DNA of 64,000 nt from Pseudobdellovibrio exovorus JSS (GTDB taxonomy: Bacteria > Bdellovibrionota > Bdellovibrionia > Bdellovibrionales > Bdellovibrionaceae), in assembly GCF_000348725.1 (NCBI RefSeq), contig NC_020813.1:2022248-2086247 (forward strand), written 5' to 3'. The position numbers and the translations under genes were made by a program. This document shows positions 55,189 to 58,393 of this stretch, one piece after another. The notes beneath the pieces were generated by a model, which had not been told where the DNA came from, made no database searches, and was given only the letters and a program-made list of their open reading frames with translations. The stretch's first letter is position 1. Every line of letters starts with the position of its first letter.

Positions 55189-56595
55189 TTACTTTAAACT
55201 ATTCAGTATCAATTGATCAAAAGCTTCTCGAACAATTGATTCATCTCGTGGACCATTGTACAGAAAAGTGAAGCTAAAAACCTTTCCATCTCGACGTCCG
55301 ACATATCCAGCAAGACTTACGACACCGTCCAGATATCCCGTTTTGGCACGTACCCAGCCCTCTGCTGGCGAGTTTTTCATACGTCTTCTTAGCGTTCCAT
55401 CAATACCCGCAATCGGTAATCCATCCAAAAATGTAGGGTAAATCGAGAAATCTTTTTGTACATCGAGTAGAACTTTATTCAGAGCTTGCGCAGAAAAAAA
55501 GTTATCACGTGTTAAGCCAGAGGGATTGATTACAGACATCTCTGTTGGAGCGATATTGATCTTCGATAGCTCTGCACGAATGATTTCCATTCCTTGTTTT
55601 AAGCTCGCTCCACGTTTTTCACTCTGTGCCACTAATCCTTTAGTGAGCATTTCTGCCACAAAGTTATTTGAAAATTTATTCATGTCAGCCAATATGTAAG
55701 ACAGATTTTTACTTTCATAACTGGCGACCAGTTCTGCACTTTCAGGAACTCGCCCCGCGACGACTTTACCTTCGACTTTAATTCCTCTTTGACGAAGAAA
55801 AGACATCAAGTTGAATCCTGACCACAGCATCGGATCATCTACACTCTTAAAGATCGCACGCTCACGACTTCCTTTGGCGACGTCTCCGCTTACGGTGATA
55901 ATACGCTCTTTATTCGATATTGAAACGACCAGCTCACGTTTCGCAGTTCCTGCCACTGTCTGCGTATTATTGACCAAAACGAAGAAATCATTTTCTGGGT
56001 CTACAACCACACGCGCCTTGCCCCCGACTTCATCCGGACTGACAAAAACATTTACGGCATTCCAATTAAAACTCATCGCCCCTACTGGTGAATCGTAAGC
56101 CCGATCTACACGCTTATCCTGACGACTCGAATCGTATCTGATTTGATCAAACAAACTGTCATCTACAACGATGTTACCTTTAATTGTATCAATGCCTGCG
56201 CGATGAAATTCATTTACTAAAAACCACATGTTTTCCGACACAAATGATGGGTCTCCGCCCCCTTGTAAATAGAGGTTATTGCCCTCTGTATACAAGCGTG
56301 TGTAGAAACGATGCCCAAGAGGCATTCGGCGTAAAACAGCAAAAGCTGTTAGAAGTTTTGTTGTCGATGCTGGAATTTTTTTTACGTTGGCATTTAATCC
56401 GTACACTTCCTTACCTGCATCCGAAATCTGCAAGCTGACATGATCAGAATCAATTTTATATTTACGTAAAATTTGATTGTAACTTTCATCTGATTTCTTT
56501 TTTGCTGCAGCGGTCTGTGCATTGGCTGGACCAAGGTGCAAGAGAGTGATTAAAACTAAGACGACATTTAGAAAAAATTTATTAAAGGTTTTCAT
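55189..56595 (-). CDS. dacB: D-alanyl-D-alanine carboxypeptidase/endopeptidase (PBP4 family)
   Basis: S13-family low-molecular-weight PBP that cuts peptide stems and cross-links in the periplasm. 468 residues with a signal peptide (about 1-26). Active site PASTTK (Ser77, Lys80), the second motif SNN in FSNNFVAE, and KTG in AKTGYLDG. A large insert (about 90-260), typical of PBP4, separates the first two motifs. PBP4-family enzymes take part in prey-wall remodelling in Bdellovibrio; that role here is inferred. Confidence 0.93.
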   Translation of the reverse strand: MKTFNKFFLNVVLVLITLLHLGPANAQTAAAKKKSDESYNQILRKYKIDSDHVSLQISDAGKEVYGLNANVKKIPASTTKLLTAFAVLRRMPLGHRFYTRLYTEGNNLYLQGGGDPSFVSENMWFLVNEFHRAGIDTIKGNIVVDDSLFDQIRYDSSRQDKRVDRAYDSPVGAMSFNWNAVNVFVSPDEVGGKARVVVDPENDFFVLVNNTQTVAGTAKRELVVSISNKERIITVSGDVAKGSRERAIFKSVDDPMLWSGFNLMSFLRQRGIKVEGKVVAGRVPESAELVASYESKNLSYILADMNKFSNNFVAEMLTKGLVAQSEKRGASLKQGMEIIRAELSKINIAPTEMSVINPSGLTRDNFFSAQALNKVLLDVQKDFSIYPTFLDGLPIAGIDGTLRRRMKNSPAEGWVRAKTGYLDGVVSLAGYVGRRDGKVFSFTFLYNGPRDESIVREAFDQLILNSLK

Positions 56596-56624: not shown

Positions 56625-57569
56625 ATGAAAAGAAGAGATTGGTTACTCGTCGTCGTGTTTTTATTTCTATCTATCCTGTTCGACCAGGTTACAAAACGCT
56701 GGGCTTCAGGACTGACGAGCGAGCTATCCTATGGATATTTAAAATTTATTTTAATTCATAACCACGGCGCTATGTTGGGTTTATTTTCAGATTTACCGGC
56801 AGTTCTGCGTATCGTGACTTTATCAACCAGCGGCGTTTTTATTCTGTCGATCTTTGCTTTAGTACAGTATTTAATTCCTCGCCGTCTAATGCCATTAAGA
56901 ATCAGTCTGTCAATTTTAGTCGGTGGAATTTTAGGTAATGTCCTAGACCGCATCCTCTATGGCTACGTTGTGGATTTCGTCGCTTTTGAAGTTGGCGAAT
57001 GGCATTCTCCGGTTTGGAATGTGGCCGACATGGTTCAGTGGGTGGGCTATGTTATGATGATCTTCGCTTTATTCAAATACAGCGAGCAACTGTGGCCCGA
57101 CCAAAATGAAAGAAAAACATTTTGGGTTAATAAAAAATTCCAAATCAAACACTCTTTATTTTTTACAGTGATTGGATTGTTTTTAACTCTGATCAGCGCC
57201 GTATTTTCTTACACGTATTTACGTGTAACCTTAGAGGAAATCGTCGGATACAACCCCGCCCTGATTGCTAAATTTACCAAACCTTTCTTAGCCACTTTTG
57301 TTGTTTTAGCCCTGTTGTTTTCTTTAATTTTGTTTCTTGTAGGACGCCTTATATCACATCGTATTGCCGGTCCGTTATATGCCTTTGAACGATTTTTAAA
57401 AGATATTCTAGAAGGCAAAGGACTCACTAAAGCTGGTGCCGCATTAAAGCTGCGTACTAATGACGATTTTAAACATCTAGAAAAATTAGCCGAGCAGGTA
57501 AAAGAGCAGGTTTCAAAATTGAATGCAGAAAAAACTGTGCACGTTACCGAATACAAAGAAGAAGATTAA
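56625..57569 (+). CDS. lspA: Signal peptidase II fused to a HAMP-like membrane module
   Basis: A protein of 314 residues, against about 165 for ordinary LspA. Residues 1-150 carry every LspA hallmark: Asp20 in the first span, HNHGAMLG (45-52), GGILGNVLDR (100-109) and VVDF...WNVAD, with the predicted catalytic pair Asp108 and Asp135. It would therefore cleave prolipoprotein signal peptides at the inner membrane. Residues about 175-245 add two more spans, and 242-300 resemble a HAMP linker (SHRIAGPLYAFERF) followed by a charged helix. Divergent from dacB; overlaps the convergent exonuclease gene by 4 bases. Confidence 0.88.
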   Translation: MKRRDWLLVVVFLFLSILFDQVTKRWASGLTSELSYGYLKFILIHNHGAMLGLFSDLPAVLRIVTLSTSGVFILSIFALVQYLIPRRLMPLRISLSILVGGILGNVLDRILYGYVVDFVAFEVGEWHSPVWNVADMVQWVGYVMMIFALFKYSEQLWPDQNERKTFWVNKKFQIKHSLFFTVIGLFLTLISAVFSYTYLRVTLEEIVGYNPALIAKFTKPFLATFVVLALLFSLILFLVGRLISHRIAGPLYAFERFLKDILEGKGLTKAGAALKLRTNDDFKHLEKLAEQVKEQVSKLNAEKTVHVTEYKEED

Positions 57570-57594
57570 AGTAATTCCACTTCTTTGATTTTTT
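57554..57594 (+). terminator. Possible terminator at the lspA 3' end
   Basis: CAAAGAAG (57554-57561) pairs with CTTCTTTG (57580-57587) over an 18-base loop, followed by ATTTTTT. The stem begins inside the last lspA codons and reaches into the end of the convergent exonuclease gene. Confidence 0.4.
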
Positions 57595-58393
57595 CTATAT
57601 AAAATCTTTTGCGTTGAAAATCTAAACCACATTCCGCGTGGATGTAGTCTCCGTCTGGGTTTCTGACAATTCCAAAAGGTTTTATCGGACGCGCTTTACC
57701 TTTTGTTTGCCCCCCCTCATAGACGATGTGAATTGTTTTTTCCTGCTCCATCGCTTTGACTAATGACAGAATTTTTTGATCCTGTGACGAATAAACACGA
57801 TAGTTATTCCAAGCCAAATCCTTTTTTTGAATATTTAAAATTCTTTGTAAGGATTGATCTTCTGGAATTTTTTCTAAGCATTTTTGTAACACTTGAAAAC
57901 AGGCATAGGCATCGTCGTACGCTCTATGTGCGGCTCCGCCAGTTAGGCCGAGTTCCTTGATCAGTGTTTGTAATTTATGATTGGTCGTCGTTAACAAAGC
58001 CCTTGAGATCAAGCTGCTGCAGAGATTGAAAGTCTGAGGCAAACGCAACCCCGCCTTTTCAATCGGGACAATTACAAAACCCAAATCAAATGGGGCGTGG
58101 TGAGCGATCAGAACGGATTGATCAATAAAGTCACAAAAACCGATGATCTGATCTTTCATCAATGGAGCCGAAGCTACCATTTCATTAGTAATTCCATGAA
58201 TTCGGATATTGTCAGGAGTCAAAAGCTTCGATGGTTTTAAGAGTGTCTGAAACTTACCAACGATTTCCCCATTCAACCACTTCACTGCACCCAATTCGAT
58301 CACTTCGGATTCAATTGGATAAGCTCCGCTTGTTTCTGTATCAAAAGCGACGATGGGGTAATCATAAATGGATCGTTTGAGGTCAAATGTCAT
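57566..58393 (-). CDS. DEDDh 3'-5' exonuclease fused to a WYL-like domain
   Basis: A protein of 275 residues. Residues 10-175 are a DnaQ/epsilon-type exonuclease: FDTETSG (Asp18, Glu20), HHAPFDLGFV (Asp103) and HRAYDDAYAC (His156, Asp160 or Asp161), so all four acidic or His residues are present. Residues about 205-275 (IHIVYEG...RPIKPFGIVR...Y...ECGL...RFYIEKIKEV) match the shape of a WYL ligand-sensing domain. A DNA-repair or RNA/DNA trimming role regulated by a small ligand is inferred. The separate polymerase III epsilon subunit is probably elsewhere. Confidence 0.82.
   Translation of the reverse strand: MTFDLKRSIYDYPIVAFDTETSGAYPIESEVIELGAVKWLNGEIVGKFQTLLKPSKLLTPDNIRIHGITNEMVASAPLMKDQIIGFCDFIDQSVLIAHHAPFDLGFVIVPIEKAGLRLPQTFNLCSSLISRALLTTTNHKLQTLIKELGLTGGAAHRAYDDAYACFQVLQKCLEKIPEDQSLQRILNIQKKDLAWNNYRVYSSQDQKILSLVKAMEQEKTIHIVYEGGQTKGKARPIKPFGIVRNPDGDYIHAECGLDFQRKRFYIEKIKEVELL

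Follow-up and report, generated by a model that had tools for sequence, protein, structure and literature searches.

A lipoprotein signal peptidase fused to a HAMP-like module in Bdellovibrionota and its possible link to a variant lipobox

Within the window, the 64,000-nucleotide stretch of Pseudobdellovibrio exovorus JSS DNA that was analyzed as a whole, lies a gene coding for a lipoprotein signal peptidase (SPase II, LspA) continued by two further membrane spans and a HAMP-like module, which we refer to as LspA-H (Table 1). Judged from its sequence, LspA-H is probably an active, second lipoprotein signal peptidase, and the reading we favor, to which we give a probability of about 45%, is that it is adapted to or prefers prolipoproteins with a variant lipobox, with the HAMP-like module dimerizing or tuning the enzyme. 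Our searches of the freely available literature for LspA-HAMP fusions, for Bdellovibrio LspA, and for variant lipoboxes in Bdellovibrio returned no account of either the fusion or its link to such a lipobox.

The reading frame is uninterrupted from ATG to stop, and its product of 314 residues is, as a sequence-only reading of this DNA had pointed out, nearly twice the usual length of LspA; the two other LspA proteins of the genome have the ordinary lengths of 170 and 171 residues. The 170-residue protein is the housekeeping copy, encoded by a separate gene between ileS and lgt (ileS-lspA-lgt). The third LspA (171 residues, L002:1462-1977; PF01252, E value 3e-30) is unfused and lies outside the ileS-lgt operon, and copies related to it are present in some relatives. 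No frameshift or stop separates the two halves of LspA-H, and an assembly chimera is ruled out because full-length, single-ORF relatives are present in more than 100 other genomes.

Residues 14 to 150 match Peptidase_A8 (PF01252; MEROPS A8) with an E value of 2e-25 and a score of 90 bits (cut-off 25), spanning profile positions 3 to 141 of 142, and the predicted structure (pLDDT of 85 for the whole chain and 92 for the tail only) superposes on LspA 5dir with a Z score of 16.4 (147 residues, rmsd 3.2 Å) and on 6ryo with a Z score of 15.9. LspA-H thus resembles characterized LspA proteins (5dir, 6ryo, and 6ryp) in its predicted fold (Z of ∼16), its catalytic and other conserved residues, and its Asp dyad, but it differs in having 160 extra C-terminal residues and Gln138-Trp139 in place of Ile-x, in being a paralogue of the operon copy, and in scoring 61.6 bits against the NCBIfam lspA equivalog TIGR00077, below the cut-off of 73.95.

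Alignment to Staphylococcus aureus LspA (6ryo) places the dyad at Asp117 and Asp135, equivalent to Asp118 and Asp136 of LspMrs. The prediction from sequence that Asp108 and Asp135 are catalytic therefore stands for Asp135 but not for Asp108, which corresponds to Asp109 of LspMrs, the conserved aspartate in GN-x-x-DR, and lies outside the dyad. Residues D20, K24, N46, N105, D108, D117, N132, and D135 are invariant among 80 fused and 27 unfused LspA proteins, and G48, G52, and R109 are nearly so; the active site is intact, and LspA-H is probably a catalytically competent SPase II. Position 138 is Gln in 69 of the 80 fused proteins, mostly followed by Trp, and Ile in all 27 of the unfused ones. 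The lipobox has been proposed to lie extended beside the Asp dyad (PMC6952399), so that residue 138 may touch the side chains at its -1 and -2 positions.

Table 1. Positions of LspA-H, its parts, its neighbors, and related features; plain ranges are positions in the window
Feature	Coordinates	Strand	Basis
LspA-H (SPase II domain, two membrane spans, HAMP-like module), 314 aa	56625..57569	+	Single ORF; architecture conserved in phylum
SPase II / Peptidase_A8 domain, residues 14-150	56664..57074	+	PF01252; model superposes on LspA 5dir, 6ryo
Catalytic Asp117 (LspMrs Asp118), by alignment	56973..56975	+	Alignment to 6ryo, roles from PMC6952399; invariant in 80 fused and 27 unfused
Catalytic Asp135 (LspMrs Asp136), by alignment	57027..57029	+	Alignment to 6ryo, roles from PMC6952399; invariant in 80 fused and 27 unfused
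Gln138-Trp139, one helical turn past catalytic Asp135	57036..57041	+	
Cytoplasmic linker before fifth span, contains LWPDQNERKTFWVNKK, invariant Trp157 and Arg163	57078..57131	+	Alignment
Fifth membrane helix, residues 170-207	57132..57245	+	Predicted structure
Sixth membrane helix continuing into HAMP helix AS1, residues 211-262	57255..57410	+	Predicted structures
SHRIAGP motif, residues 244-250, Gly-Pro at start of AS1	57354..57374	+	Conservation counts
HAMP-like module, residues 247-304 (AS1, connector, AS2 with LRxxD-[DE]-F)	57363..57536	+	Superposition on 4i3m; hhalign; tail-only Foldseek
DacB/PBP4-type D-Ala-D-Ala carboxypeptidase, divergent neighbor	55189..56595	-	PF02113, E 1.2e-88
DnaQ-like exonuclease with WYL domain, convergent, 4-base overlap with LspA-H gene	57566..58393	-	PF00929, E 4.4e-24
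SFQNC/AYQNC ORFs, own genome	L290:18472-19059; L322:17067-20003; L344:2148-3803; L325:18551-20002	+; +; -; +	
Large ORFs with tandem HAMP repeats, relatives	G006:C187:8271-11186; G043:C17:325773-328427; G038:C19:22749-24560		

A whole-genome search finds the fused protein encoded by a single ORF in 57 of 60 near relatives, and matches with E values below 1e-60 are found in 122 of the 144 genomes of its own class, including 82 of the 85 whose completeness is 95% or more; in six of the remaining, reduced genomes of the class, a profile search finds full-length or nearly full-length fused proteins. Outside the class the fused form is patchy, occurring in several Bdellovibrionota families at 28 to 40% identity and sometimes in two copies per genome. 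Scanning ∼85,000 species genomes with patterns derived from the tail, which would miss distant fusions in other phyla, yielded 74 loci, all labeled as or consistent with Bdellovibrionota. In a tree built on the peptidase domain without the tail, a single branch with support of 100/96 parts the 80 fused from the 27 unfused proteins, although some branches are long and the inner order is uncertain. The simplest reading of that branch is a single fusion origin, with LspA-H descending from one old fusion and paralogous to the housekeeping copy in the ileS-lspA-lgt operon. We take LspA-H on these sequence comparisons to be an ancient, phylum-wide paralogue, a point that the sequence-only reading did not raise.

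The extra part does contain two membrane spans, as had been suggested, and they form the fifth and sixth helices of the predicted structure. The 160-residue tail is predicted to comprise these two long helices and a cytoplasmic module with a third helix at residues 284 to 303, so that the model of the full chain shows an LspA fold, a membrane helix hairpin, and a helix-connector-helix unit that superposes on HAMP. The suggestion of a HAMP-like segment finds no direct match in Pfam: PF00672 fails to match the 314-residue protein or its tail at an E value of 10, or any of 36 fused members at 0.1, and a search of the tail against Pfam and NCBIfam returned no significant HAMP match. Weak matches of the tail to Peptidase_M48_N, GKRP_SIS_2, and CtpM were taken as chance. 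The suggestion is borne out indirectly, through stand-alone homologues, profile-profile comparison, and the predicted fold. The tail is homologous over its whole length to stand-alone, two-span HAMP-like proteins of 120 to 220 residues encoded by Bdellovibrionota (hhalign E value 4e-34), and these in turn match, with an E value of 4e-9, a HAMP profile derived from kinases and receptors encoded in those genomes; Pfam HAMP itself matches 6 of 20 of them, with a best E value of 1.7e-6. Compared directly with the HAMP profile the tail gives a weak match (E values of 2-9e-4), which scores higher than every one of 60 column-shuffled profiles and is not reproduced by the reversed profile.

Residues 247 to 304 superpose on the Aer2 poly-HAMP structure 4i3m with a Z score of 6.0 (rmsd 2.0 Å over 54 residues) and residues 170 to 314 on a WalK model with a Z score of 8.4, scores no more than modest, as expected of short helical modules; a Foldseek search with the tail only retrieves WalK, the Aer2 HAMP (4i3m), and the Af1503 HAMP (2y20). 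Because these structural matches agree with the chain of sequence comparisons, we regard the tail as HAMP-derived, the connection by sequence being mainly an indirect one through the stand-alone relatives. Gly249 is present in all 80 fused proteins and Pro250 in 78 of them, and among stand-alone proteins in 22/22 and 21/22, respectively. With canonical HAMP domains (PF00672; Aer2, Af1503, and WalK) the module shares a cytoplasmic site directly after a membrane helix, the AS1 proline, the connector, and the AS2 D-[DE]-F motif; it departs from them in falling below Pfam detection, in strongly conserved YAFE and LExxA motifs, in having no output domain, and in sitting behind a protease. The topology of LspA (N-terminus inside, four spans, and here two more) would put the module on the cytoplasmic side of the membrane, where a HAMP domain has to be.

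The stand-alone two-span proteins (L079 to L098) are a widespread family in many Bdellovibrionota genomes. They differ from the LspA-H tail in being unfused, more divergent, and scattered in their neighborhoods, with no common partner gene in the first ten loci inspected; in the P. exovorus genome no stand-alone HAMP-like protein was found apart from the fusion. We also note that relatives carry ORFs of 1,550 to 1,710 codons with many tandem HAMP repeats (Table 1).

The link to a variant lipobox comes from fused loci outside the class, a point likewise absent from the sequence-only reading. At these loci LspA-H relatives have neighbors whose signal peptides end in FNHC, YTHC, YNHC, YNQC, or YQQC; such a neighbor is present at 19 of 33 loci (one of them with VLQNC), on the same strand in 17, in most cases abutting or overlapping, and at none of the control loci. 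The idea arose by eye in five loci, the remaining loci being an independent check in which several come from one clade. ORFs with His, Asn, or Gln before the Cys number 26 at fused loci, 24 of them with the strict [FY]-[QNT]-[HNQ]-C motif, compared with three and none, respectively, at control loci. Among signal-peptide-like ORFs with [FY]-[QNT]-[HNQ], the next residue is Cys in 24/30 at fused loci, 4/8 in the P. exovorus genome, and 0/2 at controls. The linked proteins fail the canonical lipobox [LVI]-[ASTVI]-[GAS]-C, nearly all having [FY]-[QNT]-[HNQ]-C instead, and are mostly without a Pfam family, with one having NHL repeats and one DUF7151. Several separate clades of fused proteins show linkage to [FY]-x-[HNQ]-C proteins, which is seen neither at unfused LspA genes nor at the other control loci. 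Fused proteins with Met138 (in G306, G314, G316, and G338) still adjoin FQNC proteins, and Gln138 is thus not essential to the linkage.

One operon is conserved across four loci (L059:790-5193, L062, L063, and L068) and consists of a gene for a variant-lipobox protein, one for a protein with a twin-arginine-type signal (RRDFL), a second variant-lipobox gene, and the LspA-H gene; in L059, L063, and L068 these are followed by a gene for a protein with a CxxCH-like motif, which is not visible in L062, and the non-cargo genes of the L059 operon have no Pfam match. Another LspA-H neighbor (L067:6043-7470) has TAFQNFTD, the variant motif without the cysteine. In family f12 the genome-wide count of YN[HQ]C is not clearly above that of the reversed control.

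Within the class, the window included, LspA-H genes lie beside dacB and dnaQ and not beside variant-lipobox genes, with one exception (L158). The D-Ala-D-Ala carboxypeptidase gene adjoins LspA-H in 59 of 74 loci, divergently in 59/59, and the DnaQ-like exonuclease gene is present in 48 of the 74, convergently in 47; motAB is often next. The C-terminal WYL domain of the exonuclease in the window has an E value of 1.6e-4, just past its cut-off.

Genomes of the class are also strongly enriched in F/Y-Q-N-C signals, which occur in P. exovorus too. In 2.07 of the 2.66 Mb of the P. exovorus genome there are four signal-peptide-like ORFs with SFQNC or AYQNC, of 195, 551, 978, and at least 483 residues; the 551-residue product belongs to the SBBP beta-propeller proteins and resembles LipL53-type lipoproteins, and the other three have no Pfam family. 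A degenerate DNA pattern encoding a hydrophobic residue and then [FY]-Q-N-C has 1451 occurrences in the 144 class genomes, and its reversed form has 133; this control does not preserve codon usage, so that part of the excess could be compositional. The observed count exceeds the control in 133 of 134 non-reduced genomes, and ten reduced genomes give 11 against 11, which argues that compositional bias is small. Six of these ten (G238, G241, and G257 to G260) retain LspA-H without an excess of the signal, and G010 and G057 (98 to 99% complete) have many F/Y-Q-N-C matches and no LspA-H found, although two absences in 85 genomes are about what assembly gaps predict. We therefore do not count strict presence/absence coupling of LspA-H with the signal in this class as clean evidence. 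Chryseobacterium, in which no LspA-H is known, is reported to have FLNC as a lipobox, with Asn at -1 (PMC10920655), and ordinary LspA may thus tolerate Asn at that position.

The main rival, which we consider rather unlikely, is that LspA-H is a second general SPase II acting on ordinary substrates, with the HAMP tail only dimerizing or placing the enzyme and the linkage reflecting shared operons and not specificity. It fits an active site that is the same as in canonical LspA, a gene that in its own class lies beside cell-wall genes and not cargo, and the six reduced genomes that have LspA-H and no excess of variant signals; LspA paralogues are moreover common, with four in Myxococcus xanthus (PMC8689077). 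It does not account well for the [FY]-x-[HNQ]-C linkage, found in several separate fused clades and absent at control loci, or for the distinct residue at 138 common to the fused enzymes.

The sequence-only reading had proposed that processing might be coupled to a sensory or oligomeric state. A related alternative is that the HAMP module truly relays a signal: an input from the cytosol or the membrane would change its state and so switch the peptidase on or off. The HAMP fold with its conserved AS1 Pro and AS2 Asp, and the many tail positions that match those of the enzyme in conservation, are consistent with this, as is the precedent of LapD, in which HAMP mediates inside-out control of periplasmic proteolysis (PMC3032553). 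Both are membrane proteins with a HAMP domain and a role in proteolysis in the periplasm, but LapD is a receptor for c-di-GMP and acts by sequestering a protease distinct from itself, whereas LspA-H has its HAMP module within the protease and no ligand domain. The tail has no periplasmic sensor, the turn between its last two spans being short, variable, and periplasmic, and no output domain after the HAMP module, only a short charged tail lying beyond AS2; no conserved partner gene was found among the neighbors. A true relay is thus improbable, and the sensory half of the earlier proposal finds no support in these features. The oligomeric half is likelier, and dimerization or cytosolic control is more likely than sensory coupling.

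Bdellovibrionota live among producers of LspA inhibitors. That LspA-H is a spare or tolerant LspA against natural inhibitors (globomycin and myxovirescin), by analogy with M. xanthus, where lspA3 and lspA4 of the four copies lspA1-4 are proposed to protect against LspA inhibitors and where, as in other inhibitor producers, there are extra LspA copies (PMC8689077), is very improbable given its intact inhibitor-binding residues, the lack of a biosynthetic cluster nearby, and its near-universal conservation across its own class. Like P. exovorus, M. xanthus is a predatory bacterium with several LspA copies, but the review of its LspA proteins describes no C-terminal fusion, and two of the copies lie in an antibiotic cluster (PMC8689077).

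Preference for a variant lipobox thus remains the reading we favor. LspA was probably fused once to a stand-alone two-span HAMP-like protein, in or near the Bdellovibrionota ancestor. The four N-terminal membrane helices would carry the aspartyl active site at the periplasmic face, and the two further helices would return the chain to the cytoplasm, where the HAMP module probably forms parallel dimers that would hold together or tune the enzyme. The prolipoproteins that LspA-H most likely cleaves, or prefers, would have [FY]-[QNT]-[NHQ]-C in place of L-[AS]-[GA]-C, and Gln138 may read the polar residues at -1 and -2; we infer that LspA-H is the cleaving enzyme of the variant-lipobox proteins. 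More tentatively, Bdellovibrionota could use two lipoprotein codes, an ordinary one processed by the ileS-linked LspA and an aromatic-polar one, [FY]-[QNT]-[NHQ]-C, processed by a HAMP-dimerized LspA in a separate and possibly regulated line.

LspA is usually treated as a single, unregulated, and essential enzyme with one substrate signal. If the reading favored here is true, a whole phylum, including predatory Bdellovibrio, would mature some of its envelope lipoproteins by a second route, and proteins with the variant lipobox may escape predictors that follow the standard lipobox rule. LspA-H would then be a natural test both of substrate choice by LspA and of the control of a protease from the cytoplasm.
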